Shown here: positions 12,530 through 30,280 of the stretch, in pieces | How positions within the stretch are numbered: position 1 is the first letter of the stretch | Layout of the letters: every line of letters begins with the position of its first letter | From: Microterricola gilva | GTDB lineage: Bacteria > Actinomycetota > Actinomycetes > Actinomycetales > Microbacteriaceae | Reading direction: 5' to 3' | Assembly (NCBI RefSeq): GCF_004217495.1 | Contig: NZ_SHLC01000001.1 | Span: forward strand, 3,286,001 to 3,350,000 | DNA: 64,000 bases | Notes under the pieces: generated by a model | The model's input: only the letters and a program-made list of their open reading frames with translations | Told to the model about the DNA's origin: nothing | Databases searched by the model: none | Position numbers and translations under genes: made by a program

Positions 12530-12565
12530 TGTGCGCCCGAAGGGATTCGAACCCCTAACCTTCTG
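12530..12565. other. attL core (3' fragment of tRNA-Arg)
   Basis: Identical over 36 nt to 30206-30241. Similarity continues imperfectly beyond the core (TTCTGGTCTGTAG here, TTCTGATCCGTAG at attR), as expected when phage and host halves of a tRNA gene have diverged. Confidence 0.95.
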
Positions 12566-12634
12566 GTCTGTAGTTTGCGTCGAGGATCTGCTGGTTCTCT
12601 GGGCGGCCTCCGACGTGCTCGCCGAGGCCCTGGC

Positions 12635-13263: not shown

Positions 13264-13293
13264 GAGCAGAACACTACCGAAAGCGGGTGCTGA

Positions 13294-14250
13294 ATGAGTG
13301 GCACCAAGAAGGGGGCCGAGTCACGCAACAACACGGTTGGATCACCGGCATACGTTCGGCGGATGAACACAATCCCGCCCGAGTGGGCAACAGCTATCAC
13401 CAACTACATCGACGCGCAGACCGCCGCTGGATCACCCCGCACGACTCTCCGTACACGACGCGAGCACCTACAGCACCTAGCCCGCCGCATCGGCTCTGGC
13501 CCCTGGCACATGACTGGCGCAGAGCTAGTCGGCTACCTTGCACAACAGAACTGGGAACGCGAGACACGACGCGGCCGACGCGGCACACTCGCATCCTTCT
13601 ACGGCTGGGCGATCCGCGCCGGGTGGACAACAGATGATCCCCTCGAACAAGTAGACCGCGTAAAGGCAGCCGACCCCAACCCCCGCCCCGTCCCCGATCG
13701 CGTCTACCTCGAAGCGCTCGTGCGGGCCGACGCTGACGAAGCAATCTGGATAGACCTGGCCGCCGAGCACGGGCTACGCCGTGCAGAGATCTCGGTGATT
13801 CACTCCAGCGACATCCAGGAAACGCTTCTCGGCTTCGACCTGCTCGTGCACGGCAAGGGCAGCAAGCTCCGCACCGTTCCACTCACCCGAGTCATGGCCC
13901 GGTCGCTCCTCGCTCGACCGGCCGGCTACTTGTTCCCCGGCGACGACGAGGGGCACATTTCGCCGCGCTGGCTCGGCAAGCGAGTGAACAACTTGCTCGA
14001 AGGCGACTGGACGATTCACAAGCTGCGCCACCGCGCGGCAACTCGGTTCTGGGTCATGGCCGAGGGCGACCCCTACGCGGTAGCCGAGCTGATGGGCTGG
14101 GCGAGCCTAAACATGGTGCGCGTCTACGTCAAGATGCCCACCGACCGACTGCGCCGCATAGTCGAAGGCGCTAGCCGCGTCGGCGCACCGCTGGCGAGTG
14201 TCAACTCCACGTTGACACCAGAATCACGACAAGGAAGGGCAGCAATATGA
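13294..14250 (+). CDS. int: Phage tyrosine integrase
   Basis: 318 residues as drawn. The N-terminal core-binding domain (IPPEWATAITNYIDAQT...) is followed by the catalytic domain with Arg in HGLRRAEIS (about 162), Lys in HGKGSK (188), HKLR (His242, Arg245), Trp269 in place of the second His (LMGWASL), and nucleophile Tyr278 in RVYVK. It recombines the phage site with tRNA-Arg. A better start may be ATG 13363 (residue 24): it lies exactly 6 nt after TACGTT (13351-13356) and opens the folded domain. Ends in an ATGA overlap with the next gene. Confidence 0.96.
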   Translation: MSGTKKGAESRNNTVGSPAYVRRMNTIPPEWATAITNYIDAQTAAGSPRTTLRTRREHLQHLARRIGSGPWHMTGAELVGYLAQQNWERETRRGRRGTLASFYGWAIRAGWTTDDPLEQVDRVKAADPNPRPVPDRVYLEALVRADADEAIWIDLAAEHGLRRAEISVIHSSDIQETLLGFDLLVHGKGSKLRTVPLTRVMARSLLARPAGYLFPGDDEGHISPRWLGKRVNNLLEGDWTIHKLRHRAATRFWVMAEGDPYAVAELMGWASLNMVRVYVKMPTDRLRRIVEGASRVGAPLASVNSTLTPESRQGRAAI

Positions 14251-14495: not shown

Positions 14496-14503
14496 CTAGA
14501 TGC

Positions 14504-14541: not shown

Positions 14542-14553
14542 TTGCGCCTGGCG

Positions 14554-14763: not shown

Positions 14764-14772
14764 GATTTCTCC

Positions 14773-14988: not shown

Positions 14989-14997
14989 GGGCGGGCG

Positions 14998-15726
14998 CTA
15001 CCGGGGCAGCGGGAGCGCGGGCTGGCCGATCATGGCGCGGCGGCGGTTGACGCCGGCCAGGGCGGCGTGAAACTCCGTGCTGGTCACAGTGTCGTACTGG
15101 CCGGACTTGCCGTTCCAGATCCGGCCCCATTCGTTGGCGCGGGCCTCGTCGGACGGGTTCAGCTCAAAGGTGAGTTCCCCGATGAGCGCCCATCCGTTGT
15201 AGTAGGTCTGGCCAGGTGTTCCCTGCCGGATTGGTCGTGCCATGGTGTCTCTCCTTGCTGTGGTGGTGATGGGTGTGCCGGCGCCCCCGACCGGGGTGTT
15301 CGTGAGGTACTTCTCGGGGTCGAGCTGCGTGCCGGCGAGGCGCAGCTCCTGGTGGAGGTGGACGGGCCAGTCGCCACCGGTGTCGCCCATGACGGCGACC
15401 GCCTGCCCCTGGGCGACCTCGGAGCCTGGGTGGACGGTGACTTCGGAGAGGTGCGCCAGTAGGGACTCCCAGCCGTCGCCGTGGTCGAAGATCATGCACA
15501 GCCCGTAGGTGCCGCGCTCGCCCGCGAAGACGACCCGGCCGGCTGCGGGCGCGACGACGAGGAGGTCGGCGGCGGTCTTGGTTCCGTGGCCGATGTCCAT
15601 GCCGCCGTGGCGCTTGACGTTGGCACCCGGAACGTCGGTGTCGCCGAAGTGCCCAGTGATGCCGCCGCGTGCTGCCTTGATGATCTGCAGGGTGTGCCTT
15701 CCGGTTCGTTCTGTCTGGCCGCTCAC
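14998..15726 (-). CDS. Endolysin, M23 (LytM-type) peptidase with 81-aa C-terminal module
   Basis: 242 residues from GTG 15726. Residues 20-150 are an M23 metallopeptidase: HGGMD (His40, Asp44) and HLH (123-125) are the zinc ligands and catalytic His. It would cut peptide cross-bridges of host peptidoglycan. After a GTPITTTARRDT linker comes a module of no recognised family. ATG 15241-15243 (residue 162) opens that module and has AAGGAG at 15251-15256, 7 nt upstream: a strong internal start for an 81-aa product. GTGA overlap with the gene upstream. Confidence 0.92.
   Translation of the reverse strand: MSGQTERTGRHTLQIIKAARGGITGHFGDTDVPGANVKRHGGMDIGHGTKTAADLLVVAPAAGRVVFAGERGTYGLCMIFDHGDGWESLLAHLSEVTVHPGSEVAQGQAVAVMGDTGGDWPVHLHQELRLAGTQLDPEKYLTNTPVGGAGTPITTTARRDTMARPIRQGTPGQTYYNGWALIGELTFELNPSDEARANEWGRIWNGKSGQYDTVTSTEFHAALAGVNRRRAMIGQPALPLPR
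15241..15256 (-). promoter_or_regulatory. Internal ribosome site and start inside the endolysin gene
   Basis: AAGGAG on the - strand (15256-15251), 7 nt, then ATG (15243-15241) in the endolysin frame. It predicts a separate 81-aa C-terminal product (14998-15243), as known for some two-product endolysins. Confidence 0.65.
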
Positions 15727-15965: not shown

Positions 15966-15981
15966 TGCGGTTCGCTTTCTA

Positions 15982-16569
15982 CTAGGTGCGGATGATGAAG
16001 TTTTCGGTGACGTAGGGCTGGAGGTTGTTGTGGGCAGCACCGCCGCCCGCGTCGCCGGTTTTGGTGACGTTGGAGCCGGTGCCGGTGCTGGACAGGTACG
16101 CGTTGCCCGTGCCTGAGGCTGATCCCGCGCCCCATTTGAGGATCGTGGCATCGACAATTGCGGCGGGGCTGTGGCTGTGAACCGGGCCTTCAGCGGGGGT
16201 GAGCGCGTGCGACTTCGAGCCGCCGGTCTTGCCGAGGGTGTTGAACTCGGTTTGGGCTGTGTCGAGGCCGACGCCGACACGGCCGCGACGGTCGGGCACG
16301 TTGAACGTGGACGAACCGTTCCCGGCACCGTGCGCGGTTCCGATCGCAGCGAACAGGGCCGCATAGGTTGTGCGTGAAACGGCTTGCCCCTGGCAGAGCA
16401 GCCAGCCGGCCGGCGCGGCGGTGCCGGCGAACTCTTGCACCACGCCGGTGGGGACGCCCCGGGCCGTCGCGGCGCTGAGCGCACCCTGGAGGGCGATCAG
16501 GTCGAGGGCTTGGGCGGAGTTCTTAGACTCCAGGATGCGGAGCCGGTCTTCGATGTCGCGAAATGCCAT
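15982..16569 (-). CDS. Phage tail fibre protein with tail-collar domain
   Basis: 195 residues. An N-terminal helix (DIEDRLRILESKN) probably trimerises. Residues 41-110 fit the phage tail-collar domain (AGTAAPAGWLLCQGQAVSRT ... FNVPDRRGRVGVG). The C-terminus carries HSHSP and HNNLQPYV, the His pairs that bind metal ions in T4 gp12-like fibre tips. It is likely the receptor-binding protein. Confidence 0.88.
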   Translation of the reverse strand: MAFRDIEDRLRILESKNSAQALDLIALQGALSAATARGVPTGVVQEFAGTAAPAGWLLCQGQAVSRTTYAALFAAIGTAHGAGNGSSTFNVPDRRGRVGVGLDTAQTEFNTLGKTGGSKSHALTPAEGPVHSHSPAAIVDATILKWGAGSASGTGNAYLSSTGTGSNVTKTGDAGGGAAHNNLQPYVTENFIIRT

Positions 16570-16579
16570 AGCGAGTGTC

Positions 16580-18613
16580 CTAGAGCGGTTGGAGGTCGAT
16601 GGTGACGAGCCAGCGGGTGGGTTGGATGTCGTGGGTGATGGCGATGATCTGGGAGTCCTGCTGTACGCCGTTGAAGTGCACGATGATGCGCTGACCGACG
16701 TCGAGGGTGTTGGCCATGGCGAGGTCTTGCTGGGCGTTCATTCGAAGCTGGGAGACGAGCAGCTCCGGCTGGTCGCGTGCATCGAGGATCGCGGCCAGGC
16801 GGTCGGTGAGGGCCGCCCCGTAGGGCACTTCGCTGTAAAGGTTGGTTCGGAGGGTCTGGGAGCGGGTGCCGTACGCGGTGATGGATGCCGGGGTTGTGAC
16901 GACCAGCTCATCGTTCTTCTCGTTGGCTCTGGTCTCATCGACGCCGTAGTTGGTGACGACGAGACGGTTGGTCATCGCGCGAGTGTCGTAGCCGGCCGAG
17001 ATGTCGATATAGCTCTGCGCGTTGTCGTCCACCTGATCGGAGAACACAGCCGTGACTGGCAGGGCTGTGCCGGGGAGGAGGAAGCGTGTTGTGCCGTCTT
17101 TGCCAACGCCCCATGACGCTCCGACCGAGTTACATGCGAGGTCAAAGTGGGTAGCAAGGTCGGACTCGAGCACGGTCTCCCGGAGGCGCTGCGGGTAGTC
17201 GGTGTTCAGCTCCAGCAGCTTGATGCCGGTGAAGGCCGCGCGCTCGATCACGTTCTCTGCGCCGGCCACGGTGACCGTCTCGGCCAGGAGGATTTGCACC
17301 GTGACCGAGGTGGCGTCGGCGACGAACTCCACGAAGCCGAGCGGGGTGGCCACGGTGCCGAGGGTGACCGGGGCGGCGCTGGCCTCGCTCACCACGCGCA
17401 GGCGGTAAGCGTCGCCGCGCGGGCTGTCGGAGCGAGTGCCGGTTGCTTCGAAACGGTAGGCCTTGCCGACGACAAGGCCGGTGATGACCTTCTGGATGCC
17501 GAATGTGTCGGCGGCGAGCGTCACGGCGGCGGTGGAGAGGCTTTCCAGCCAGAGGGCCTGTTTGCTGTTGGCGATGCCACGGCGGAGGCCGGAGGCGGTG
17601 AAGTATGAGATCTGTGCGGGCTTGGCGCCCACGCGCGTCCAGCCATCCAGATCTCCGGAGTCCAACACGAGCAGGTAGCTGAGCGTGTTGGAGAAGGTGT
17701 TACTTCCGCCTGCCGTGCGGGCGGCGACCCGGGCGTAATAGGTGCGGCCGCCGGCAAGGCCTGGGTGTGCGTAGCTCAGCACATTGCCGATGTCGGCGGT
17801 GACCAGATCGGCTGTGAACGCCGGGTTCGTGGCGATCTGCACCCGGTAGCCCACAAGGCCCGTTGTGACACTCGGAGCTGACCACGAAGCGATGAGGGCG
17901 GCGGCAGCGTTCTGAGTGAGACCCGTGAGGTTGGGAGCGGGCAACGCCGGTGTCTTCGACACGGCACTGGAGTAGCCGCTGTAGCCCTGGCTGTTGCGTG
18001 CACGCACCCGGAACCAGTACGTCGGGCCGGCGGCGAGGCCCGTCACGGTCTTCTCCGCGGTACCAGTGCCGGCAAACGTCTGGGTGCCGACGCTGGTGGT
18101 GAAGCCGGCGTCGGTCGCGTACTGAACCTGATACTCGGTGATTGCCGCGCCCATGTTGTCCGGGGCAGTCCAGCCGAGCGTCACAGAGCTCGGCGTCGTG
18201 TTGCCTGCGGCCAGTCCAGTGGGGACTGCCGGCGCTTTCGGGATGCGGATGAACGAGACGTTGCCGCCGGTGGAGCCGTCACCCAGCTCGCCCCAGCTGT
18301 TGTTGTCGTCGTAGCTGGCGCTAAATGACGCGGTGAGGTACCCGGCGGCGTTGTGCGCGAGGTTGACGGAGCTATCGGCCAGGTACAGCTCGCCGTAGTT
18401 GCGGAAGTCATAGGCGGGGATCGAGCCGCCAACCGGGATGCCACCGAGGTTCGCAGACCAGTAGTGCGGGCCTTCCGCGCGGCGGCCCTCGCCGGCGCCC
18501 TTGATGATGCGGAGCGACCAGAAGACAGTGGAGCTGTTGCCGGTCTGTGGCCCCTGAGCGACCTCCAGGCGGAGAACGTAGCCGGCGGCGAGACCTGCGT
18601 CGAATGTGGCCAT
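16580..18613 (-). CDS. Minor tail (tip) protein with fibronectin type III repeats
   Basis: 677 residues. An N-terminal 125-residue beta domain of a type common in phage tails (VFWSLRIIKGAG, YDDNNSWGEL) is followed by two FN3 repeats (about 130-225, with VTLGWTAPDNMGAAITEYQV, and 225-320, with LIASWSAPSVTTGLVGYRVQ). The C-terminal half resembles a tail-spike baseplate component ending in ITHDIQPTRWLVTIDLQPL, typical of gp27/Tal-like hub proteins. It overlaps its upstream neighbour by 1 nt. Confidence 0.82.
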   Translation of the reverse strand: MATFDAGLAAGYVLRLEVAQGPQTGNSSTVFWSLRIIKGAGEGRRAEGPHYWSANLGGIPVGGSIPAYDFRNYGELYLADSSVNLAHNAAGYLTASFSASYDDNNSWGELGDGSTGGNVSFIRIPKAPAVPTGLAAGNTTPSSVTLGWTAPDNMGAAITEYQVQYATDAGFTTSVGTQTFAGTGTAEKTVTGLAAGPTYWFRVRARNSQGYSGYSSAVSKTPALPAPNLTGLTQNAAAALIASWSAPSVTTGLVGYRVQIATNPAFTADLVTADIGNVLSYAHPGLAGGRTYYARVAARTAGGSNTFSNTLSYLLVLDSGDLDGWTRVGAKPAQISYFTASGLRRGIANSKQALWLESLSTAAVTLAADTFGIQKVITGLVVGKAYRFEATGTRSDSPRGDAYRLRVVSEASAAPVTLGTVATPLGFVEFVADATSVTVQILLAETVTVAGAENVIERAAFTGIKLLELNTDYPQRLRETVLESDLATHFDLACNSVGASWGVGKDGTTRFLLPGTALPVTAVFSDQVDDNAQSYIDISAGYDTRAMTNRLVVTNYGVDETRANEKNDELVVTTPASITAYGTRSQTLRTNLYSEVPYGAALTDRLAAILDARDQPELLVSQLRMNAQQDLAMANTLDVGQRIIVHFNGVQQDSQIIAITHDIQPTRWLVTIDLQPL

Positions 18614-19107
18614 TAGAAGCTGTACACCTCCCGGGGTGCTCCGACGGTCGGCACCTGGACCGGAGCCTGAGCGGACCCGGCCAGACGGTTGATGCGCGAC
18701 TCAAACGTTTCGAAGCCGGCGGCGATGGTGACCCCATAGCGCGGCGTGCTGGCGTGGACTCGCACCGCGTCGGCCACGGTCACGGTGACCATTGCCCGGC
18801 TCTGACCGTTCTGCTTGTCGAGCGGGTACGCGGACGCGATGTCTACCAGACGCCCGGTAAAGAGCGGGCCGAGCAGTCCGACGACCCGCACCGCTTGGCC
18901 GGGCACGAATGTGCCGCCGGCGAGCGGGTCTTGCGTGTTCTTGAGAGTGAACGAGCACAGACCGACGTCGGTCTTCACGCCGAGGCCGTCTCGGCTACCG
19001 CCGCGTCGGATGGAGACGCCGGTCGCGTTGGCGATGTAGGTGACCCACAGGCCGCCCTCGAACGCCTGCACGTCAACTTTCCCGCGGAGGGGCCGCTCGA
19101 TGATCAC
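18613..19107 (-). CDS. Minor tail protein downstream of tape measure, 164 aa
   Basis: Beta-rich with no membrane segment. Position directly after the tape measure gene (4-nt overlap) and before the tail-tip protein is that of a distal tail or tip component. The sequence VGLCSFTLKNTQDPLAGGTF ... FTGRLVDIASAYPLDK is of the kind seen in actinophage tip proteins but not a family I can name. Confidence 0.72.
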   Translation of the reverse strand: MIIERPLRGKVDVQAFEGGLWVTYIANATGVSIRRGGSRDGLGVKTDVGLCSFTLKNTQDPLAGGTFVPGQAVRVVGLLGPLFTGRLVDIASAYPLDKQNGQSRAMVTVTVADAVRVHASTPRYGVTIAAGFETFESRINRLAGSAQAPVQVPTVGAPREVYSF

Positions 19108-21188
19108 AGCCGGCCTCCTGCGGTCTCGTAGTCGCGTATGGACTGGACGATGATTCGGCCGGTCTCGGCGGTCGGGTTGAGTGTGTTGACGTACACCTGG
19201 TAGGTCGGGGCCGGGGCGGTGCCGCCGGCCGATGCTGTGAAGCTGAGGTCGGGGGTGGCAAGGGTGGGGCCGAAGTCGGAGACGCGGCCGGCGAGCCCGT
19301 CCAGGCTCTTGTCCACCAGGCGTGCGTTGCCGTCGAGGCCTTTGACGAGGCCCTGGATCACGTTCTTGCCGTAGCCGGCGAACAGGCGAGACGGCGAGTG
19401 GATGCCGAGCAATCCGAGGAATCCGTCGATAGCGCTGCCGGCGATGTCGAGCAGTGCGGAGCCGACTGCGCCGCCGGCGTTCCAGAGGCCTTGGACGAGG
19501 CCGCCGATCAGATCGACACCGGCGCGGATGAGCTGGGGCACGAGGCCGATGAGGGTGGAGATCATCGTGGGTGCCAGGTCAATGAGCGCTCGGATGAGCT
19601 GGGGCAGCACCTTGGGGATGGCCTCCACGATGCCGGTGAAGAGTTTCACGGCCGCATCGATCAGTTTGGGGATCATCCCGATGACGGTGGTGATGATCTT
19701 GGGCAGCAGCTCAAGGATCGCTACGACGAGCAGCGGCAGGATGATCGGCAGCGACTCCACGAGCGATGTGAAGAGTTGGACGGCCGCATCCAGGATCGCG
19801 GGGATGAGGTTCAGCAGCGTCTCGATCAGCTTGGGCAGCAGCGCCACGATGGCGGTGATGAGTAGCGGCAGGATGACCGGCAATGCTTCGACCAGAGAGG
19901 TGAAGACTTGGACGGCGGCCGTTAGCAGCACGGGGATCATCGCGATGAGGGTTTCCAGGATCGGGGGCAGCAGGGCGATGATGCCGGCAAGCAGCACCGG
20001 CAGCACCTCGATGAGCGCGTTGAGGAGCCCCTGGAACAACTGGATCGCGCCGGCGAGGATGAGCGGGGCCTGGGCGACAAGCATCTGGGCGAGTTGGGTG
20101 ACGAGCACGACGAGGCCGGTGACGATCGCGGGGATGGCCGCGACCAGTGCTTGCAGGATCGCGGGGAAGACTTGGAGTGCGGCGTCGAACACGGCGCTTC
20201 GGCCGGCGACGATGCTGTTGACGATGGTGGCCGCGCCGCCGGCTGCGAGCCAGTTGGCCGCCGACTGGATGCCGCTCACGGCGGCGTCGAGGAGGCCCTG
20301 AAACATGCCGCTGAAGTCGAGGGTGGCGGTGCCGTTGAGGAGGCCGAACACGAAGTCGGCGAAGCTGTTGGAGGCGTCGGTGAGGTAGCCGGTGAACGCC
20401 TCGAACGCGGCCGACTCCTGCACCCGGTTCACGAGAGTTCCGAGGGCGGCGCTCACGGCGGTCACTGCCGGCAGAAGCGAGAAACCGAGGGTGGCAAACA
20501 GGTTTTCGCTGCCGGCGGCGAGGCGCTGCTGCGCACCGGCGAGGGTGGTGCTCTCGCGGGAGAATGCGCCCTGGGCGTCGGCGGTCTGCTGGTAGAGCAG
20601 TGCGAGGGTGGCCTGGAGCTTGGCGTTCTTCTCGGCCTCGCCGGTCAGGCCGGACAGCCCCATCTCCGCCATCTTCGCTTTCAGCGCGGCCTCGTTCATC
20701 GAGACGCCGTAGCGCTCGATCGGGTCACGCTCGCCGCGCAGCAGCGAGGAGAGGGCAGACACGGCATCCGAGGTCGAGCCGCCGAACTGGGCGGCGAGGT
20801 CAGCGCCGAGGCCGACGAGCTTGTCAGTCTGGCCGGCGAGCTGGTCTTGGGCGACGCCCATGTTCTTGAGCTGGGCGCCGAGCACGGTGGAGAGTGAGGC
20901 GTACTCGCTCTTGGCCAGGCCGACCGAGTTGGCGGCCTTGGTCGCCCACGCTTCCATCTGAGTGCCACTCTGGCCAAACACGGCATACATACCGCCCATG
21001 GCCTGCTCCAGGTCGGAGGCGCTGCGGACGGCCTTGGTGCCGATCGCGGCGACGGCGACGCCGGCAGCGACGCCGATGGCGGCGGCGACCTTGCCGAACT
21101 TCGAGAGGCCGGTCTCACTGTCACCGAGCGCGCGCTGGAGGCTCTTGGCGTTTCCGGTGATGCTGACGACGACGGTGTTACCGGCCAT
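19104..21188 (-). CDS. Tail tape measure protein
   Basis: 694 residues. The N-terminal 200 residues carry the typical tape-measure start (MAGNTVVVSITGNAKSLQRA ... FGKVAAAIGVAAGVAVAAIG), and the centre has many hydrophobic helices with a repeating pattern (LLITAIVALLPKLIETLLNL), usual for siphophage rulers. By the 1.5 angstrom-per-residue rule it implies a tail near 100 nm. AAGGA lies before the ATG. It follows the frameshifted chaperone pair. Confidence 0.95.
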   Translation of the reverse strand: MAGNTVVVSITGNAKSLQRALGDSETGLSKFGKVAAAIGVAAGVAVAAIGTKAVRSASDLEQAMGGMYAVFGQSGTQMEAWATKAANSVGLAKSEYASLSTVLGAQLKNMGVAQDQLAGQTDKLVGLGADLAAQFGGSTSDAVSALSSLLRGERDPIERYGVSMNEAALKAKMAEMGLSGLTGEAEKNAKLQATLALLYQQTADAQGAFSRESTTLAGAQQRLAAGSENLFATLGFSLLPAVTAVSAALGTLVNRVQESAAFEAFTGYLTDASNSFADFVFGLLNGTATLDFSGMFQGLLDAAVSGIQSAANWLAAGGAATIVNSIVAGRSAVFDAALQVFPAILQALVAAIPAIVTGLVVLVTQLAQMLVAQAPLILAGAIQLFQGLLNALIEVLPVLLAGIIALLPPILETLIAMIPVLLTAAVQVFTSLVEALPVILPLLITAIVALLPKLIETLLNLIPAILDAAVQLFTSLVESLPIILPLLVVAILELLPKIITTVIGMIPKLIDAAVKLFTGIVEAIPKVLPQLIRALIDLAPTMISTLIGLVPQLIRAGVDLIGGLVQGLWNAGGAVGSALLDIAGSAIDGFLGLLGIHSPSRLFAGYGKNVIQGLVKGLDGNARLVDKSLDGLAGRVSDFGPTLATPDLSFTASAGGTAPAPTYQVYVNTLNPTAETGRIIVQSIRDYETAGGRL

Positions 21189-21215
21189 CTCGGGCGTCCT
21201 TCCTGGGTGGGGCTG

Positions 21216-21622
21216 TTAGCGGGGTCGCCGGTTACGCCGGCTGGCTTCCTGGGCGATGGCGTCGCGCTCGCCCAGGGTGAGCTGGTCGTACTCCGTCGGC
21301 GCGATGCCGAGGAGCACGAAGCTCGCCTTTACTCGATCGCGCTCTCGTCGGAGGGCTCGCCTTTTCCCTCGTCGGTGTCCTGCCCGGGCTCGGGCTCGTT
21401 CAGGCCGATCACCTCGTTCGCCTGGTCGAGGGTCAGGCCCATGGCCTGGTTGAAGGTGAAGCCCGGCTCGCCGCTGCGGCGCTTGACGACCATGGCGAGA
21501 GCGGCGAGGGCCTTGCCCTTGGGCGAGGTCGCGTCGGCGATGGTCGAGATGGACTGATTGGAGAGATCCTCGATCGTGGCCACCTCGCCGAGGGTGAGGG
21601 AGTCGAAGTCGAACGTTGCCAT
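21216..21622 (-). CDS. Tail assembly chaperone, frameshifted long form (gpGT-like)
   Basis: Made by -1 slippage at 21362-21368: 87 codons of the short form, then 48 codons in the -1 frame ending at TAA 21216-21218, total 135 residues. The added part runs RRALRRERDRVKASFVLLGI and then TEYDQLTLGERDAIAQEASR, which matches the usual second-frame T domain of siphophage chaperones. No start codon or ribosome site precedes the second frame, which supports frameshifting rather than a separate gene. Confidence 0.82.
21329..21622 (-). CDS. Tail assembly chaperone, short form (gpG-like)
   Basis: 97 residues, acidic C-terminus (EPEPGQDTDEGKGEPSDES). It lies between tail-completion/tube genes and the tape measure, the standard place of the lambda gpG equivalent, which coats the tape measure during tail assembly. 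Near its 3' end it carries the slippery sequence GGGAAAA that lets a fraction of ribosomes continue into the -1 frame. Confidence 0.85.
   Translation of the reverse strand: MATFDFDSLTLGEVATIEDLSNQSISTIADATSPKGKALAALAMVVKRRSGEPGFTFNQAMGLTLDQANEVIGLNEPEPGQDTDEGKGEPSDESAIE
21362..21368 (-). other. Programmed -1 frameshift slippery site GGGAAAA
   Basis: On the - strand the zero-frame codons are GAG GGA AAA GGC, so the heptamer is G GGA AAA, a classical X XXY YYZ site. A fully open -1 frame follows to 21216. Confidence 0.85.
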
Positions 21623-21644
21623 GGGGTCTCGTTTCTGCTGGGGG

Positions 21645-22049
21645 CTACTTGAGCCCGTTGTTGTGGAGGATCGTGGTGATGCCGGCGGAGAGTTCGCTCA
21701 CGATGCGGCCCTGGGAGCGCTTGAGCGCGTCGGTGAGGAACGGCTGGGGGCGGGTGCCTCGGTGCGGGTCGCCGTAGTGGACAACGCCGGCGTGGGCTCC
21801 CCGGTTGCGGTACCCCGCGCGGACAACGGCTTTGGTCTTGCCCTTGCCCGCGCGGAGTGTGCTGGCGAGCGACCCCGACTTGGCGGGAACGCGCGCGTTG
21901 GCGATGACGATGTTGCCCAGGCGGTGCATTAGCTCCGACATCTCGCTGAGGTCGGAGCCGGCGGCGCGCAACCGCCGGCTGACCTCGGCGACGCCCTCCA
22001 CCAGGACGGTGCCGCCCTGGTGGAAGCCGCTGCCCGCCTGGGTGGTCAT
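21645..22049 (-). CDS. HK97 gp10-type tail-completion/head-tail protein
   Basis: 134 residues from ATG 22049, overlapping the stop of the tail tube gene (TAATG). N-terminal helix VAEVSRRLRAAGSDLSEMSE, then ARVPAKSGSLASTLRAGKGK and GAHAGVVHYGDPHRGTRPQP, the usual pattern of the gp10-like minor tail family with a C-terminal helix. It would act at the head-tail joint. Confidence 0.82.
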   Translation of the reverse strand: MTTQAGSGFHQGGTVLVEGVAEVSRRLRAAGSDLSEMSELMHRLGNIVIANARVPAKSGSLASTLRAGKGKTKAVVRAGYRNRGAHAGVVHYGDPHRGTRPQPFLTDALKRSQGRIVSELSAGITTILHNNGLK

Positions 22050-22486
22050 TACGGGGTGCCCGAGTCCATGACGGGCTCGCCCTCGATCTCGAACTCGTAG
22101 TCGAACTGGAACGCGGACGAGCGCGAGGTCGAGGCTTCGCCGCCGATGGTCGGCTTCGCGCCGATGGTCAGCGTGCCGACGAAGTGCGGCTCCTCGGCGG
22201 TCGCGATGGCGTTGCCGTGCGGGGCGACCGTGTACGGAATGTCCGTCTCGCCGGTGTTCTCCCACACGTACCGCCAGAATGAGGTCGAGGCGGTGGACTG
22301 GATCGCAGCGCCGCGCAGGAAGTACTGGCGCGCTCCGCCGGAGGCCGCGTCCTCGAACGTCACAACGTCGGAGTCGGCCTCCTCGTTCTCGATCGACCAC
22401 GAGATGATGTCGGCGGACTGGTCAGCCCCCGGGGTGCCGAGGGTGAGGACGGGCTTCTTGTTGCCTTTGATGCGGGGTGAACCCAT
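22049..22486 (-). CDS. Major tail (tube) protein
   Basis: 145 residues, beta-rich, no hydrophobic segment. Position before the tail-completion and chaperone genes and length fit the tube protein; the internal pattern ADIISWSIENEEADSDVVTF and FVGTLTIGAKPTIGGEAS is of the type seen in actinophage tail tubes. It should be the most abundant tail protein. Confidence 0.8.
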   Translation of the reverse strand: MGSPRIKGNKKPVLTLGTPGADQSADIISWSIENEEADSDVVTFEDAASGGARQYFLRGAAIQSTASTSFWRYVWENTGETDIPYTVAPHGNAIATAEEPHFVGTLTIGAKPTIGGEASTSRSSAFQFDYEFEIEGEPVMDSGTP

Positions 22487-22487
22487 T

Positions 22488-22871
22488 TCAGACTCCTTGT
22501 GTGAAGGTCACGTCGGTCGTGACGGTGATGGCGGTGACGAGGCCCTGGGCGTTGTTGAAGCTCTGGGTGTAGGGCTGGCTGATCTGCTCGACCTGCCAGC
22601 CGGCGGCCTCCAGACGGGCCTGAGCGCCCTCGATCAGCTCGTCCAGGGCGGGCGTCTCGGAGGCGTTGTCGCCTTGCTGGGTGCAGAGCACGACCTCGAA
22701 GCGAACGGTTCGCTCTCCGAAGGTCTGGCCCTGCTCGATGTAGGGGGAGCCGGCCATGACGAATGCGCCAGGCAGCGCCATCCGGCCGGGTATGTGGGTG
22801 TAGGTGTTCAGGTCGAGGCCGGCGAGGGAATCGACCAGATCCTCGCGGAGGACGAGCAGGTCGCCGCTCAT
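22488..22871 (-). CDS. Tail terminator-like protein
   Basis: 127 residues from ATG 22871, in ATGA overlap with the connector gene upstream. The alternating pattern FEVVLCTQQGDN ... LDELIEGAQARLEAAGWQVE ... LVTAITVTTDVTF fits the small tail terminator fold that caps the tube before head joining. The call rests on gene order and size. Confidence 0.72.
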   Translation of the reverse strand: MSGDLLVLREDLVDSLAGLDLNTYTHIPGRMALPGAFVMAGSPYIEQGQTFGERTVRFEVVLCTQQGDNASETPALDELIEGAQARLEAAGWQVEQISQPYTQSFNNAQGLVTAITVTTDVTFTQGV

Positions 22872-23197
22872 GCGAGCCCCAGCGGGAGGTACGGCTGGAG
22901 GATCGGGTAGGCGGCGACCATCGGATCGCGGGCGACGCGGATGGCTGAGCCGTCGGGGGCCGAGAACTGGCTGATGCCGTTCGGGGCGCTCCGCCGGTTG
23001 TACAGCTCCGAGCCGACTTCGATCTGCGCGCGCTCCAGGATCGGGGTCGGCACGGTGGCCGTTCCGACCCGGGCCGAGACCAGGGCCTCCGCCTCGTCCA
23101 GGCACGTCTCGATGAACTTCTCGTCGGACGACGACACTGAGTGTGCGTCGGCCTTCACGTAGTCGGTGAGGCGAGTGATGAGGTCGGCGGAGGCCAT
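22868..23197 (-). CDS. Head-tail connector protein (gp6-like)
   Basis: 109 residues, helical: MASADLITRLTDYVKADAHS, then a helix ETCLDEAEALVSARV and IEVGSELYNRRSAPNGISQF. This is the usual gp6-like adaptor pattern that sits beneath the portal. It lies directly after the capsid gene. Confidence 0.82.
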   Translation of the reverse strand: MASADLITRLTDYVKADAHSVSSSDEKFIETCLDEAEALVSARVGTATVPTPILERAQIEVGSELYNRRSAPNGISQFSAPDGSAIRVARDPMVAAYPILQPYLPLGLA

Positions 23198-23201
23198 GGC
23201 C

Positions 23202-24836
23202 TTACGCTCCGAACTTGATCGGGACGACGAACTGGGGAACCTCGGGGGCGACTGCGCCGTAGCGGTAGACGCTGAAGTCCTTGGAGAGGTTGATGATGTT
23301 CTCGTCCTGGAGGCTGACGAGCGAGCTGTCGTACTGGCGGATCGCCTCGCCGTTCACGAACGAGGCCTGATCGCCGGTCTGGCCGGGGTCGGCCGCGACC
23401 TTCAGCCCGGCGAGGCTGCCCGTCAGGCCGACGAGGTTGAGCGTGCCGATCGACTTGCTCTCGTCGGTGACCTTGAGGGCCTTGTCGCCGGCGATTGTGA
23501 GGGCGTCGAGGCGCTTGAACACGTTGGGCGAGACGAGCATCGCGTCGATGCCGGCGTTCTCGGCGTCGTACTTGATCGCGGCGTCGATGATGGCGGCCGT
23601 CCACTGCGCGGCGGTCGAGGCGGCGAGCGTTGCGCCGAGCAGGACGACGCCGGCGTCGCCGGCGATGGCGCGTCGGGCGGTGACCAGGGCGTTGAACGCG
23701 GCGCGGAGGACGAGCTTCTTTCTGGCGCCGGCGGCGAGGGCAAGCGCCTGGAGGGAGCGGTTCAGCACTGGCAGGGTGCTGCGCTCGATCTGCTGGCGGG
23801 TGAGCTGGGTGTAGCCGCCGTAGGTCTTGACCGGGGCGGTCTTCGTCTCCAGCGTGACCTTGCCGAACTTGAGGTCGTCGCCCTCGTTGGCCTGCTCCTC
23901 AACAGTCGTGGTGTTGGCGAGGAGCTGGGCGTACTCGATGTTGTTGCCCTGGGCGGGCAGGGTGCCGGTGGCGAACGCGCTTGCGAGAACGCCACTGGAG
24001 GCGTCGAAGATGCGGGTGAGGTCGCCGACCCAGGCATCTTTGACCGGTGCGTCGGCGCTCGTGCCGCCGGCGTAGGCGCGCGTCTGCGCCTCGTCGAAGA
24101 GGTGTTCCTGCGAGGCGTTGTACGAGCGGATCGCGTCCTCGTCGCCGGCCACGAGGGCCTTGAGGAATGCGCCGGCCGAGCGGGTGTCGCCGGCAGGCGC
24201 GGCGACCGTGGGCGTGGTCGGGATGAGGGCGAAGCGGCGCTCCAGGTCTGCGAGCGCTTCGCTGCTCTCGATGGCGAGAGCGCGAACGTCGAGGGCGTCG
24301 TCGGTAGCGGTTCCGGACATGCTGGTCTCCTTGCGGGGTTGGGTGATGGTGGTGGTGAGGGAGTGGCGAACGTCGGTGACGGTCGCGCCGTCGTAGGCGG
24401 GGAAGGGAACGAGGCTCACTTCGTCCACCTTTGAGCGCTTGTGCGTGATGTGGGGCACGTCGCCCGACTCATCGACTTCGTACTGGTCGAAGCGGAATCC
24501 GATCGAGTGCCGGGTGAGTACGCCGTCGCGGGCGAGGGTGAGGGCGTCGTCGCCGGCGCGGGTGCTGGAGACCAGGGCCGTGATCTCCCACCCTTCCTCC
24601 GTGTCGCGGTGGGAGATGATGCGGCCGATGGGCTCGCGGTGGCCGTAAAAGTAGAGGGCGTCGTCGGAGTCCTGGATCGCGCCGCGCTCGAACTCCTCGG
24701 TGAACCATCCGCCGATGTCGGCGCGCTGGCCCCAGGGGACGGCGATGCCGGTGATCTCGCGGCGCTCGGTGTCGGTGGAGCGAATCGCCAGCTCGCGGGT
24801 GGAGTGCTTGGCGAGCAGGGTGTCGATGTCAGTCAT
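23202..24836 (-). CDS. Fused capsid maturation protease and HK97-fold major capsid protein
   Basis: One 544-residue frame. Residues 1-160 are an S21-type prohead protease: His66 in YFYGHREPIGR, Ser111 in LTRHSIGFR and EVSLVPFPAY. No stop follows; from residue 173 the HK97-type major capsid protein runs to the end (helical delta-like segment, then YTQLTRQQIERSTLP and DAMLVSPNVFKRLDAL). The protease would self-cleave and trim the capsid N-terminus. A strong internal start at 24320 could give free capsid protein (372 aa) in excess. The start overlaps the portal stop by 8 nt with AAGGAG upstream. Confidence 0.93.
   Translation of the reverse strand: MTDIDTLLAKHSTRELAIRSTDTERREITGIAVPWGQRADIGGWFTEEFERGAIQDSDDALYFYGHREPIGRIISHRDTEEGWEITALVSSTRAGDDALTLARDGVLTRHSIGFRFDQYEVDESGDVPHITHKRSKVDEVSLVPFPAYDGATVTDVRHSLTTTITQPRKETSMSGTATDDALDVRALAIESSEALADLERRFALIPTTPTVAAPAGDTRSAGAFLKALVAGDEDAIRSYNASQEHLFDEAQTRAYAGGTSADAPVKDAWVGDLTRIFDASSGVLASAFATGTLPAQGNNIEYAQLLANTTTVEEQANEGDDLKFGKVTLETKTAPVKTYGGYTQLTRQQIERSTLPVLNRSLQALALAAGARKKLVLRAAFNALVTARRAIAGDAGVVLLGATLAASTAAQWTAAIIDAAIKYDAENAGIDAMLVSPNVFKRLDALTIAGDKALKVTDESKSIGTLNLVGLTGSLAGLKVAADPGQTGDQASFVNGEAIRQYDSSLVSLQDENIINLSKDFSVYRYGAVAPEVPQFVVPIKFGA
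24318..24332 (-). promoter_or_regulatory. Internal ribosome site and ATG for the capsid part
   Basis: AAGGAG (24332-24327) lies 6 nt before ATG (24320-24318), in frame with the protease-capsid fusion. It is better than most ribosome sites in the operon and suggests separate high-level capsid synthesis. Confidence 0.75.
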
Positions 24837-25992
24837 TGGGGATCTCCTTGGGCGTCGTGGTCTCGGGCAGCGGCGGCAGGTTCTCGATCGCGCGCACTTC
24901 GGGGATGGTGAGGAAGCCGGCCTCGATGCCGGTCTTGTGTGCGCCGTAGCGGGTGGTGGTGTCGGCGCGGAGCAGCGCCTCGATGTTGAACTTGGCGACG
25001 GTGCCGCGCGGCAGCAGGTCGGAGAGGGCATCCTCGATCTCGACCAGGTACGCCATGAGCGCGAACCGGACGTAGCCCAGCCAGTCCTGTTCGACGTTCG
25101 CGTAGGTCTGCGCGGAGCCCTCGACGGATGCCAGCATGAGCGAGGCCGGCACGCCGAACAGGCGAGCGATCTGGGTGACGGTGAACTTCTGCGACTCGAG
25201 GAATTGGGCGTCGGCCGGCGAGAGATAGATCGGCTGGTAGCTGAGGCCGGCACCGAGGACGGCGACGCCCTTCTTGGCTCCCTGCGACTCGTTCCACGTC
25301 GCTTTCGCCTGGGCGGCCGTGTCGGACTGGAGGTGCTGATCGGACTTCAGCACGCCGTTGGGGATGCCGGAGTCCTGGAACCAGTTCTGCGAGTAGTCGC
25401 GGAGATCGAGGGCTCCGCGCAGCTCGACCTGTGCGGCCTGGATCGGGCCGAGGCCCTTGAGGGAGCCGGGAACGCGCAGCAGGCTGAGGTGCTGCACCTC
25501 GTCAATGTTCAGATCGCGACCCCGGTAGCTGTAGCCGGCGAGCTCGCCGTTCGCGTCGCCCATGGGCACCACGTCGAGCGGGTTGAGGCACTGGACGTTG
25601 CGCACGACGCCGGGAGCCTCGAACGACTTGAGCCAGTAGGCGTTGCCCTGGCTGGCGAGGGAGACGACGCACTGTTCGACGAACGACGAGCGGGTGAGCC
25701 GAACGTCGGGGCGGCGCACCAGGGACGGGGCGATGGGGAGTGCTTTGCCGTCTCGCTCGCGGAGTGCGACTATCGAGAGCTGCTTGCTGGCGACGGCGTG
25801 AATCTGGATAGCCCGGTAGGCCATCGACACTCCGAGCGCTTCGCCGGCGCTGACCGACCGGGTGCTGCCGGAGCCGGCACGCGGCGGGATGACTAGCGCG
25901 GTGCTCGGGTCAGATGCCAGCGTTTCCTCCGATCGCGTGTGCGTCGGCTCGGCGGGAACCGGGCCGAGCAGCCAATCCGCGATGCGCCCCAT
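24829..25992 (-). CDS. Portal protein
   Basis: 387 residues of the HK97-type portal family: MAYRAIQIHAVASKQL in the N-terminal third, LASQGNAYWLKSFE, LNPLDVVPM, the clip region LLRVPGSLKGLGPIQAAQ and the C-terminal helix region PASLMLASVEGSAQTYANVE. Twelve copies form the DNA channel and bind the terminase. It lies between terminase and protease genes. Confidence 0.95.
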   Translation of the reverse strand: MGRIADWLLGPVPAEPTHTRSEETLASDPSTALVIPPRAGSGSTRSVSAGEALGVSMAYRAIQIHAVASKQLSIVALRERDGKALPIAPSLVRRPDVRLTRSSFVEQCVVSLASQGNAYWLKSFEAPGVVRNVQCLNPLDVVPMGDANGELAGYSYRGRDLNIDEVQHLSLLRVPGSLKGLGPIQAAQVELRGALDLRDYSQNWFQDSGIPNGVLKSDQHLQSDTAAQAKATWNESQGAKKGVAVLGAGLSYQPIYLSPADAQFLESQKFTVTQIARLFGVPASLMLASVEGSAQTYANVEQDWLGYVRFALMAYLVEIEDALSDLLPRGTVAKFNIEALLRADTTTRYGAHKTGIEAGFLTIPEVRAIENLPPLPETTTPKEIPND

Positions 25993-26047
25993 GTGCCTGC
26001 CCTCCGTGTCTGTGATCGAACGGAGAGCAGGCTAAGGATTCCAAAAG

Positions 26048-27499
26048 CTAGAACACTTGCAGCGTGTCGTCGCTGCGCGTCTCTGCGGCCAACACGCCGA
26101 TGGCGGTGGAGAGCACGCCGTCGATCTCGATGGACGAGTCGCCACGGCTGATGCGGAACTGCTCGCCGATGTTCTTCCGCACGGTGCGCGGCACCTGGAG
26201 CGTGAGCAGCGGGTCGCCGGCGTGCCAGAGCTTGCCGGTGCTGAGCTTGGCGTAGAGCAGCGCGGAGGCGTTGATCACGTCGCCCTGGTTGGCGATCCAG
26301 ACGGGCAGGCCGCGCTTCTTGAGTTCGAGGCCGAGGTCTTTGAGCGCGTACCCGTCCATGGCGAACACGACGGGCGAGAATCGGTTGAGCTCGACGGCGA
26401 CGGCGACGAGCTGTTCCAGGTTCGGGTTGGTGATCGACGCGACGAGTTCGGAATGGGTGTCGGGGCCGGCCTTGACGGTGGCCGTGATGGCGGCAAAGCC
26501 CCAGTCGGGCGTGCGATCGAAGGTGAAGATCGGCCGGCCGCTCGGGAAGGCCTGGCCGGAGGGCCGGCGCTGCTTGCTCCAGAGGTCGAGGGTGATGAAG
26601 GCGTTGGAGGAGGCGGTGAAGCGGTTGAGGCGGTAGCGGATCGCGTCCGGCTCGGGCAGGCCGCGCACGTCGCTGATGGCGGTCTCCAGGTCGAGCCGGC
26701 CGCACGCGAGCCCGGGGGATGCCGCGCAGAGGTAGGCCCCTAGCGTCTCGTCGTCCTCGGGGATGCGGGCCTCGGGGGCCTCCCAGATGAAGAATCCGAA
26801 TCGCGCGCCGGGATCCTCGGCGTTCTTGTAGAGCTGGAGCAGCAGCTCGCTGGAGTCGTCGCCGGCGGTCGTGAGGCCGATGACGACTCCGGAGCGGCGG
26901 GCGGCGGAGCCGTTCACCATGTCCGACCACAGCTCGGGCTTGGTGATGTGCAGCTCGTCCACCAGGCCAACGGTGAGGTCGAGGCCCTGGACGGCGGCAG
27001 ACTTCGAGGGCTTGATCTCGTAGCGGCCGCCGTCGAGCGACTGGATACCACGTGTGTCGGTCAGGCGGGCGAAGCGGGCGGCGAGGGACTTGTTGCCACG
27101 GATGACGGACAGTAGGCGGGCGTAGATGATTCGGGCTTGCTCGGCCGATGATGCGATGCCGATGACGAGCGCGCCGGCTTCTCTCACGAGCCCGTAGAGG
27201 CCGAGGATCGCGCCGAGCACGCTCTTGCCGTTCTGCCGGCTGACCGAGACGAGCACCTGGCGATAGCGCAGCTCGCCTGCGCGCTTGTGCCCGGCCGGGT
27301 AGGTCTCCAGCATCGCGCGGATCAGCCAGCGCTGCCATTCGTCCAGCTCAAGCGCCGAGCCGTCCGGGAGCCTCCACACGACATCGACCAGGCGCAGCAG
27401 CCAGTCGCCGTGCGTGGTGAAGTCCTCGGCGAGCGGCAGCGAGTACCGCGTCGGCATCCACGGCGGGGAGGATGCCGGGGCCTCCAGCAGCAGCGTCAC
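26048..27499 (-). CDS. Terminase large subunit
   Basis: 483 residues from GTG 27499. ATPase: Walker A SVSRQNGKSV (85-94), Walker B VGLVDELH (177-184), and coupling motif GLTTAGDDSS. The C-terminal nuclease half has acidic residues in FTFDRTPDWGFAAI and FAMDGYALKD. It packages DNA into proheads and cuts it. GTGA overlap with the small subunit shows coupling. Confidence 0.96.
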   Translation of the reverse strand: MTLLLEAPASSPPWMPTRYSLPLAEDFTTHGDWLLRLVDVVWRLPDGSALELDEWQRWLIRAMLETYPAGHKRAGELRYRQVLVSVSRQNGKSVLGAILGLYGLVREAGALVIGIASSAEQARIIYARLLSVIRGNKSLAARFARLTDTRGIQSLDGGRYEIKPSKSAAVQGLDLTVGLVDELHITKPELWSDMVNGSAARRSGVVIGLTTAGDDSSELLLQLYKNAEDPGARFGFFIWEAPEARIPEDDETLGAYLCAASPGLACGRLDLETAISDVRGLPEPDAIRYRLNRFTASSNAFITLDLWSKQRRPSGQAFPSGRPIFTFDRTPDWGFAAITATVKAGPDTHSELVASITNPNLEQLVAVAVELNRFSPVVFAMDGYALKDLGLELKKRGLPVWIANQGDVINASALLYAKLSTGKLWHAGDPLLTLQVPRTVRKNIGEQFRISRGDSSIEIDGVLSTAIGVLAAETRSDDTLQVF

Positions 27500-28787: not shown

Positions 28788-28981
28788 GCGAGCACTCCTG
28801 TCATTGCGAACAACACGAGGGCGAGCGCCCACGCGACGGGGGCAGACGCGCACGACGCGGCCACCCAGACACTCAGAGGCCATGTTTGAGGCCGGGTTGG
28901 GTGGATCGTGCGGCGCGCTCGGTGACGTACTGGCAGGCCGTGGCGGGCGATCAGCCATGCGGTGAGCGGATCGCGGCTCAT
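28784..28981 (-). CDS. Small phage protein with C-terminal membrane segment, 65 aa
   Basis: Basic, Arg/His-rich N-terminal half (TAWLIARHGLPVRHRARRTI) and one membrane helix at about 43-63 (AWALALVLFAMTGVL). ATGA overlap with the replication gene. Function unknown. Confidence 0.62.
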   Translation of the reverse strand: MSRDPLTAWLIARHGLPVRHRARRTIHPTRPQTWPLSVWVAASCASAPVAWALALVLFAMTGVLA

Positions 28982-29829
28982 GCGAGTTCGCCAGCGAGAG
29001 GGTTGATGATGGTTCCGGTCTCGGGATTGATCCACTCACCGAGCGCAGTGTCGAAGACAGGGATGGGGCCAGCCTCGAAGAGCGGCGGGCGTTCGCCGCA
29101 GTGCTGGCAACGCATCGAGTTGGCGTCGTAGTCGTGCAACTGGTGGCCGCGCCGGTTGGGGCACCACGGCACGGCGGGTGCGGCTTCTGTAGCGGAGCGC
29201 AGCGACGATGCGAGGTCGAAGACCTCCTCGGAGGGCGTGCCGCTCTGCGGCTCAATCTTGCCTTGAACACGAGCCGACGACGGCGAGTTATCCACAGGCG
29301 CTTCTGTAGTTACGTCTGCATGACTATCTCTAGAAGTGTTCTTAAGTTTGTTTTCTATAGTCATGGGATTTTCCGCCGACGGATTTCCCGGCGACGGATA
29401 AACCAGCGCCGGGTTTTCCCCCGCTGGTGTGATCAGGGCTTTTGTCTTCGCAGCCGGTAGAAGCTCCTCGAAGCCTTCGAGCGTCGTTCCGGGGTTGTCC
29501 ACAGGGGCGTGCGGGTCGGTCAGCCGCCAGTTGATGCCGGCGAACTGACCCCGGCTGCGGGTGCGGTATCGCTTCAGATAGCCGGTGCGCTCTAGCTCTG
29601 TGACCTGCGAGTGGATCGCATCGCGACCGTTCTTCGAGGCACGTGTGAGGGCATCTATCGTGATCACGAAACCCGGCTCGTGGCTGGCGAGCTGCACGAG
29701 CAGACCGCGAGCTGCGTTCCCAATCCGCGCGTCACGCGCCCAGGAGTTGGGGATGATCGAGAACCCGCCATCGAACCAAAGCTTGTCGCGCAGCAAGCGC
29801 CCACTGTTGTCGCTCACGAGCGCCCGCAT
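28978..29829 (-). CDS. Phage replication-initiator-like protein with winged-helix domain
   Basis: 283 residues from ATG 29829. The N-terminal half (LWFDGGFSIIPNSWARDARI ... ASKNGRDAIHSQVTELERTG YLKRYRTRSRGQFAG) is the helix-turn-helix domain found at the start of many actinophage replication proteins. A disordered middle follows, then a C-terminal zinc-ribbon-like part (CPNRRGH and RCQHCGERPPLFEAG). The frame is open to 29886, but that start would fall inside the operator palindrome and upstream of the predicted transcript start, so 29829 is preferred. It is the first gene of the leftward operon. Confidence 0.78.
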   Translation of the reverse strand: MRALVSDNSGRLLRDKLWFDGGFSIIPNSWARDARIGNAARGLLVQLASHEPGFVITIDALTRASKNGRDAIHSQVTELERTGYLKRYRTRSRGQFAGINWRLTDPHAPVDNPGTTLEGFEELLPAAKTKALITPAGENPALVYPSPGNPSAENPMTIENKLKNTSRDSHADVTTEAPVDNSPSSARVQGKIEPQSGTPSEEVFDLASSLRSATEAAPAVPWCPNRRGHQLHDYDANSMRCQHCGERPPLFEAGPIPVFDTALGEWINPETGTIINPLAGELA

Positions 29830-29844
29830 GTCGAGATGTTGTGC

Positions 29845-29883
29845 ATGATCCACAGAGTTCTTCACATTGTGAATAACTCTGTG
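29845..29883 (-). promoter_or_regulatory. Leftward early promoter with 33-bp operator palindrome
   Basis: On the - strand: -35 TTCACA (29873-29868), 17-nt spacer, -10 GATCAT (29850-29845). A near-perfect palindrome spans 29851-29883: outer arms CACAGAGTT / AACTCTGTG and inner arms TTCACA / TGTGAA around one T. It covers the spacer and -35, so repressor binding here would block the lytic operon. Confidence 0.75.
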
Positions 29884-29898
29884 CATTGAATGCGGCGT

Positions 29899-29930
29899 GT
29901 CGAGATATTGGGCACGAATGGTGCTACTTT
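29899..29930 (+). promoter_or_regulatory. Repressor promoter region with repeated 16-bp motif
   Basis: The 16-nt motif GTCGAGATATTGGGCA (29899-29914) recurs as GTCGAGATGTTGTGCA (29830-29845), 69 bp apart, one copy at each gene start. A TACTTT -10 box (29925-29930) stands 6 nt before the repressor ATG, implying a leaderless message. No good -35 is seen, as for promoters needing activation. Confidence 0.55.
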
Positions 29931-29936
29931 GTGTGC

Positions 29937-30242
29937 ATGACGATCATGGACAATCCCACGTGGACATTAGTCGACAGGCTGCGCAAGTCTCGTCTGCTCG
30001 CTGGCATGGAGCAGGCAGATCTCGCCGAGCTGATCGGCGTTTCTCGCAACTCCGTCAGCAACTACGAGAACGGCAAGACCGAGCTGAGCGCGACGACATT
30101 CGTGCGCTGGGCTGCTGCCACCGGCGTATCGCTCGAATGGCTGGCGGAGGGAATGCGCATTAACGCAAAAACGGCCTCAGCTGAAGCTGAGACCGTTTCT
30201 GGTGATGTGCGCCCGAAGGGATTCGAACCCCTAACCTTCTGA
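29937..30242 (+). CDS. Phage repressor (XRE-type HTH), prophage form truncated at attR
   Basis: 101 residues from ATG 29937. The HTH at about 26-47 reads QADLAELIGVSRNSVSNYEN, the Cro/CI type; SLEWLAEGM follows as usual. The last 12 residues (VRPKGFEPLTF) are translated from the antisense of tRNA-Arg within attR, and the TGA (30240-30242) uses one host base. Joining core to the left prophage end gives instead 24 further residues ending VLAEALA, stop at 12636-12638. So integration swaps the tail. It is divergent from the lytic operon and separated by its operators. Confidence 0.93.
   Translation: MTIMDNPTWTLVDRLRKSRLLAGMEQADLAELIGVSRNSVSNYENGKTELSATTFVRWAAATGVSLEWLAEGMRINAKTASAEAETVSGDVRPKGFEPLTF
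30170..30197 (-). terminator. Phage-borne terminator for tRNA-Arg, inside the repressor gene
   Basis: Arms AACGGCCTCAGC (30170-30181) and GCTGAGACCGTT (30186-30197), one wobble, followed on the - strand by a TTTT tract (30170-30167). It lies 10 nt beyond the tRNA 3' end, replacing the host terminator left at attL. Confidence 0.8.
30206..30241. other. attR core
   Basis: 36 nt identical to attL (12530-12565). Here it joins the host 5' half of tRNA-Arg, leaving the tRNA gene whole, and it also encodes the end of the repressor on the other strand. Confidence 0.95.
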
Positions 30243-30280
30243 TCCGTAGTCAGATGCTCTATCCGTTGAGCTACGGGCGC
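30208..30280 (-). tRNA. tRNA-Arg (anticodon ACG)
   Basis: 73-nt cloverleaf on the - strand: acceptor GCGCCCG with CGGGCGC plus A73, anticodon arm CTGACTACGGATCAG with ACG, T-arm GGGGTTCGAATCCC. CCA is not encoded. It serves as attB of the prophage; the 3' 34 nt come from the phage copy. Confidence 0.97.

Follow-up and report, generated by a model that had tools for sequence, protein, structure and literature searches.

The 17.7-kb prophage of Microterricola gilva described here has its attachment site inside its repressor gene. This gene encodes a 101-residue protein in the integrated state and, when the two prophage ends in the analysed DNA are joined, a 125-residue protein. The same anatomy recurs in related elements of the Microbacteriaceae, and records of a related phage and of related contigs have the uninterrupted long form. 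It is highly probable that the arrangement serves as an integration-dependent immunity switch. We infer that the long form would be degraded and inactive, that the short form would be stable and active, and that operators lie upstream of the gene. This kind of switch is already known from BPs, from 17-kb Gordonia phages and from Bifidobacterium prophages, to which the present prophage adds.

Attachment Core and Reading Frames of the Repressor Gene

The window is the whole stretch of 64,000 nucleotides that was analysed, and it belongs to a genome assembled as one contig of 3.67 Mb. Five features define the two prophage ends.

12530..12565, + strand: common core of attL, 36 bp, the longest exact repeat common to both ends
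12566..12638, + strand: phage-only repressor tail, ending ..DVLAEALA, in the frame obtained after joining the ends
29937..30242, + strand: repressor gene in its prophage form, 101 aa, HTH at residues 15-69 (phrog_2328, E 2.8e-23; PF01381; 434 repressor)
30206..30241, + strand: common core of attR, 36 bp, in frame within the repressor gene and forming the 3′ part of tRNA-Arg
30207..30280, − strand: tRNA-Arg(ACG), the integration target, rebuilt by the phage core (ARAGORN)

The core is exact at either end of the 17.7-kb prophage. The repressor gene enters attR and stops at TGA 30240-30242, which consists of the core bases 30240-30241 and the host base 30242. When the core is joined to 12566 onward, TGG takes the place of this TGA, and the frame gains 24 residues before the stop TGA 12636-12638, giving 125 aa. 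The latter stop overlaps, as ATGA, the ATG at 12635-12637, which starts a 119-aa frame ending at 12994. As in BPs-type integration-dependent immunity, attP lies inside an open repressor frame, integration shortens the repressor through a stop at the host junction (TGG to TGA by base 30242), and attB overlaps a host tRNA gene, tRNA-Arg(ACG) at 30207-30280. The ATG at 29937 is favoured as the putative start of the repressor because the repressors of several relatives begin with MTM or MTI.

The preliminary description of this DNA had the 36-bp core, the stop that uses one host base and every coordinate right, and joining the window's ends bears out its 101-residue prophage and 125-residue circular-phage repressors, as well as the 24-codon extension to TGA 12636-12638 with the ATGA overlap onto the next phage gene. 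Its judgement that such a fit is very unlikely by chance was too strong. Among random joins made in prophage or window DNA, 52-65% stay open for at least 24 codons, 6-9% do so and have their stop inside ATGA, and the 0.6-3.6% that satisfy all conditions also have an ATG there that opens at least 100 codons. The fit of the reading frame in the single case is suggestive, and the strong support comes from the comparison across elements.

Gene Content of the Prophage

12635..12994, + strand: 119-aa gene, directly after the repressor in the circular phage (frame after the ATGA overlap)
12970..13263, − strand: 97-aa gene, opposing, between the repressor tail and the integrase (phrog_34413, E 3.5e-10)
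13294..14250, + strand: tyrosine integrase, 318 aa (profile and homology matches)
14998..15726, − strand: peptidase/endolysin (profile match)
15982..27499, − strand: virion gene block (profile matches)
28978..29886, − strand: replication-initiation-like early gene, divergent from the repressor, candidate start (profile match)

The virion block encodes tail proteins (fibre-like), tape measure, tail chaperone, major tail, connector, capsid-protease fusion, portal and large terminase proteins. The repressor belongs to a homologous HTH family, as shown by its phrog_2328 match (E 2.8e-23) and by tblastn matches to the Angel and Bipper repressors, and its best-scoring solved structures are those of the 434 repressor. 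The only Pfam domain of the integrase is PF00589. The 119-aa protein, which has several cysteines, has no PHROGs or Pfam match, and the repressor region has no match in plasmid records.

The repressor and integrase lie on the same strand and in the same order as in the known systems, but the 119-aa gene and the opposing 97-aa gene intervene, which counts against a simple repressor/integrase pair. A shared repressor-integrase operon is at best putative, and our confidence in the switch is slightly lowered because an opposing gene lies between the two.

Recurrence of the Junction in Microbacteriaceae

Across 398 Microbacteriaceae genomes, counting that of the window itself, the integrase was found in 30 (threshold 1e-25) and the repressor in 21 (threshold 1e-9). 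In 17 of 22 repressor loci a tRNA gene on the opposite strand overlaps the 3′ end of the repressor gene, the tRNAs being Arg in 11, Thr in 3, Lys in 2 and Asn in 1. The scan for att cores covered 36 elements, comprising the window, 10 paired elements chosen for an integrase and a repressor 14-17 kb apart, 20 more integrase loci and five repressor loci (from G227, G096, G133, G052 and G185; those of G179, G279, G194, G369, G251 and G292 were left out). The repressor frame at the cores was picked by the repressor HMM.

A core was detected in 21 of the 36 elements. None was seen in the stretch examined for 13 of the 20 other integrase loci, where L081 and L094 (contig ends) and L085 were short, or in the repressor loci L115 and L116. 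The repressor frame passes through the core in 17 of the 21 elements having one; L090, L093 (tRNA-Lys), L098 and L100 (tRNA-Met) have no such frame and are counted against the switch.

Host DNA closes the frame in 16 of these 17 elements, the window included, whereas joining to the phage side leaves 34-181 nt of open frame. In the 16 the host-side stop codon begins between 2 nt before and 21 nt after the core end, and their target tRNAs are tRNA-Arg, -Lys, -Thr and -Asn. The 17 elements were scanned in two sets, of 14 and 3. In 12 of the set of 14, the stop codon is finished by the first host base, giving TGA, or TAA in L088, where the phage codon is TGG, TGT, TGC or TAC. The 17 elements are 14.8-17.7 kb in size, and the phage-only tails span 11 to 60 codons. 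The one exception, L078 (Labedella), has a repressor that is apparently frameshifted relative to the others before the core, and it is counted against the rule. In L078 / L128 (1970-2431) a repressor is seen at both ends with an 82-bp repeat, both copies being apparently frameshifted before the core; this is possibly a tandem prophage.

One of the 16 elements, L071, is another prophage carried by this genome (contig 1, 985500-1004800; 15.6 kb), integrated at tRNA-Lys(CTT). Its repressor is 49% identical to that of the window over residues 6-89, and it has the same TGG to TGA junction. Despite different tRNAs and cores, the two share the tail motif WAA.DVLAE, and their upstream DNA is similar. 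Over 21 tail codons the two differ by 5, 6 and 11 changes at codon positions 1, 2 and 3, and 5 of the differences are synonymous while 9 are not, a weak codon-position bias that is counted against the switch. Judged from these comparisons, the genome appears to carry two elements with the same switch and related repressors.

Long Form of the Repressor in Phage and Contig Records

The isolated Curtobacterium phage Barebow encodes a 133-aa repressor whose frame continues across a tRNA-Arg-like core, and its integrase gene lies downstream. In a set of 67 integrase loci, a repressor lies upstream of the integrase in five, namely L165, L166, L168, L125 and L128 (the last being the L078 case); 28 of the remaining 62 have less than 1 kb upstream in the locus. 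The frame reads through a tRNA-Arg-like core in the following four, with the core checked in three of them.

L165 (IMG/VR): long form ends WALAA; integrase 542 nt on; core checked
L166 (IMG/VR): long form ends WALAA; integrase 542 nt on; repressor head cut by the contig end
L168 (IMG/VR): long form ends RQAVA; integrase 1889 nt on; core checked
L125 (Brevibacterium): long form ends PLVA; integrase 20 nt on; core checked; repressor head cut by the contig end

L067, a contig of 3866 bases, has a repressor-like ORF whose end, DGLIAA, follows a segment similar to the tRNA-Thr elements, and it looks like an unintegrated form; no integrase was found within the 1970 bases examined. A free form of exactly this phage was not found among viral records. 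An identical integrase occurs in only one viral record, L145 (IMG/VR, 17.3 kb), which begins about 0.4 kb inside attL and is without the tail.

Tail End and Degradation Tag

The host tmRNA tag is ANSKRTDFALAA, which ends in ALAA. The repressor tail of the window ends in LAEALA, which is close to this tag but not canonical, and the ending ALA rather than AA is counted against the switch. Of the 16 tails compared, 12 have Ala or Ser as their last residue.

Tails ending in A: window, L073, L074, L075, L077, L080, L091, L097
Tails ending in S: L071, L076, L079, L117
Tails ending otherwise, counted against: L072 (D), L088 (C), L113 (V), L114 (V)

The background frequency of such ends in frames of 11-60 codons is 19-24%. 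With kinship between the elements ignored, the binomial probability of the enrichment is 2e-6 to 3e-5, or 5e-6 to 7e-5 when L078 is entered as a miss. The attP tail of L072 continues beyond a segment similar to the tail ends of its relatives, as far as RIDRD, and is without a tag-like end. The tag need not be LAA, because the long repressor of Angel (BPs-type) ends in KAS and the change A135E stabilises the BPs repressor (PMC4557955; here and below, papers are cited for passages of their text).

The window integrase ends in GRAAI and has no clear C-terminal tag of the AA type; an AA end was seen in 7 of the 19 integrases examined. Published systems tag the integrase too, unlike the window, and this is counted against the switch. 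Degradation of the 125-residue form could at best be presumed from these tail ends and from the analogy to BPs.

Comparison with Known Systems

The closest known system is the integration-dependent immunity of mycobacteriophage BPs and its kin in Clusters G, N and P. The preliminary description had stated that BPs places attP in its repressor gene and uses tRNA-Arg as its target, in agreement with passages of PMC9262239, in which a host base makes TGA at the junction. Its proposal that a BPs-like lysis-lysogeny switch works here is supported by the homologous repressor and integrase, by the BPs-type junction and by the 16 of 17 elements. The window resembles BPs in the position of attP, the tRNA-Arg target, the 35-36-bp core, the change of a third codon position to TGA and a tyrosine integrase downstream on the same strand. 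The proteins are homologous; compared to Angel, the repressor shows 37% and the integrase 44% identity. The window differs from BPs in its phage size (17.7 kb against 41 kb), its viral codon (TGG instead of Cys), its number of extra residues (24 against 33), its tail end (ALA), the two genes, one of them opposing, before the integrase, and the lack of a clear integrase tag. It also has an antisense terminator in the repressor, whereas none was found in Angel or Bipper.

Both window proteins are homologous to proteins of Barebow, Angel, Bipper and Gordonia phages. Gordonia phages of Cluster CW (Jeanie, McGonagall, GMA5 and GRU3) are described in passages of PMC5559632 as temperate phages of 17.1-17.7 kb with integration-dependent immunity. 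They are alike in size, in being temperate and in a common 37-bp attP at a tRNA, and GMA5 has an extra gene between the integrase and repressor; they differ in host family and in using tRNA-Lys rather than tRNA-Arg, and the likeness is one of description. Barebow (PQ868957, 18.3 kb) has a repressor 43-46% and an integrase 50-51% identical to those of the window, and shares the tRNA-Arg-like core, which lies inside gp19, with the integrase downstream. Its tail ends in RAS, no gene lies between repressor and integrase, and a small HTH gene is divergent; its record gives no immunity type. In the Bifidobacterium prophages Bb423phi2 and 689b-1, the viral repressor is 18 residues longer and includes an ssrA-like tag (PMC6109161, in part); they have the integrase at attL, the repressor at attR and kinship to small CW-type phages, but belong to another host and are again likened by description.

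The top-listed DNA matches for 12531-20500 are Paopuvirus (Microbacterium phages; PoRanda, 17.5 kb), with 67% identity over 41% of the query, although the PoRanda record has a repressor and lists no integrase. Passages of other papers describe integration-dependent immunity in M. abscessus prophages (PMC9934374), a Streptomyces phage with synteny conserved with this immunity (PMC12243558) and an Arthrobacter phage of similar layout but with attP outside the repressor (PMC5513430). The system is not mentioned, and the term attP is absent, in the passages of PMC9862828 on Curtobacterium prophages; attP is likewise absent from those of PMC9030533 on a Microbacterium prophage. Among the literature matches listed, no title describes integration-dependent immunity in Microbacteriaceae.

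Proposed Switch and Alternative Explanations

During infection, while the phage is circular, the repressor gene would read through attP and yield the 125-residue protein, whose C-terminal tail may mark it for degradation, so that lytic genes would remain on. The integrase would then recombine attP with tRNA-Arg, and the repressor gene would lose its 3′ end. The first host base would change the Trp codon TGG to the stop TGA, and the resulting 101-residue form, if stable, could repress the divergent early gene and confer immunity. The tRNA sequence would be kept because the phage core supplies its 3′ part, and the tRNA would gain a phage-borne terminator located antisense within the repressor gene.

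The attachment site could merely lie at the end of the repressor gene, with both forms stable and active and the truncation a harmless by-product. This is unlikely. A 24-codon open frame past a random join is common in GC-rich DNA (the 52-65% above), the window tail is not a canonical LAA, and both BPs forms bind DNA similarly (PMC4557955). Against these points stand the shortening of the frame at the core, seen on four tRNA types in 16 of 17 elements, the Ala or Ser ends in 12 of 16, the WALAA tails of L165 and L166, and the alike tails of this genome's two prophages. It is similarly improbable that the prophage is a dead remnant and its two frames are left over from a switch that no longer works. 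No free copy of precisely this phage was found, and L145 is without the tail, but the att cores are exact, and the genes for repressor, integrase, peptidase, terminase, portal, capsid and tail look intact.

Very unlikely, finally, is that the long form has an activity of its own, such as activating the repressor promoter, and that integration swaps one regulator for another. Such an activity would be compatible with the variable tail length (11 to 60 codons) and with a stabilised BPs long form that appears to raise Prep activity modestly (PMC4557955). The tails, however, have little in common beyond a small last residue, and degradation is the established explanation for the long form in BPs (PMC9262239, PMC4557955).

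The integration-dependent switch, if it works as proposed, would extend this immunity to 15-18-kb temperate elements in Microbacteriaceae and offer many natural variants on four tRNA types. The tRNA and its terminator on the other strand would shape the C-terminal segment of the repressor, which would make the sequence limits of the switch testable.

Terminator Antisense to the Repressor

30171..30196, − strand: phage-borne tRNA-Arg terminator hairpin, T-run at 30163-30170, antisense to repressor codons
12498..12523, − strand: displaced host tRNA-Arg terminator, left outside attL, with a different stem

A strong hairpin with a T-rich stretch within 12 nt was found on the phage side of the tRNA 3′ end in 13 of 16 elements, the window included, compared to 63 of 960 random 70-mers of the same prophages under the same rule. 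There was no such hairpin in L074 and L091, and the T-rich stretch of L113 lies at 24 nt. A stricter T-run rule retains hairpins in 10 of 14 elements. By the same test Barebow has a comparable hairpin, whereas Angel and Bipper are without one. L078 was left out of these counts and of the palindrome and motif counts below.

The phage hairpin sits in the pre-core DNA of the repressor, and those codons therefore double as a terminator. We give about even chances to a broader proposal, in which the repressor 3′ part has a triple use as codons, as tRNA-rebuilding core and as antisense terminator, and in which immunity heads are swapped at the core while the tail and integrase are kept. Head swapping is proposed because the contigs L165 and L166 suggest swapped heads: L165 2387-6864 and L166 152-4629 are 99.96% identical from the att core on, with different repressor heads before it. 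The heads may have been exchanged at the core, or the difference may stem from a chimeric assembly. No paper combining antisense terminator and repressor terms appears among the best 15 of 30 literature matches listed.

Candidate Operators Upstream of the Repressor

29851..29883, no strand assigned: near-perfect palindrome, 33 bp, operator candidate (0 of 100 shuffles as good)
29892..29902, + strand: GCGGCGTGTCG, operator candidate, a motif upstream of related repressors

A palindrome upstream of the repressor is better than all 100 shuffles in 5 of 16 elements (window, L071, L074, L080 and L114). A shared palindrome upstream of the repressors was considered and rejected, as those of the five elements differ. 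A 23-bp repeat at 29828 and 29897 has no further copies in the prophage with up to 7 mismatches.

The motif GCGGCGTGTCG was chosen from six of the 16 elements and recovered in 6 of the other ten. With at most one mismatch, it stands upstream of the repressor in these 12 of 16 elements (7 exact; two on the other strand only), and there are 31 matches in the remaining ~262 kb. Barebow has four matches, of which one, at 2543, lies in the interval separating gp20 from gp19. The BPs operators contain CGACATATGTCG (PMC4557955, in part), and TGTCG is common to this sequence and the candidate motif.
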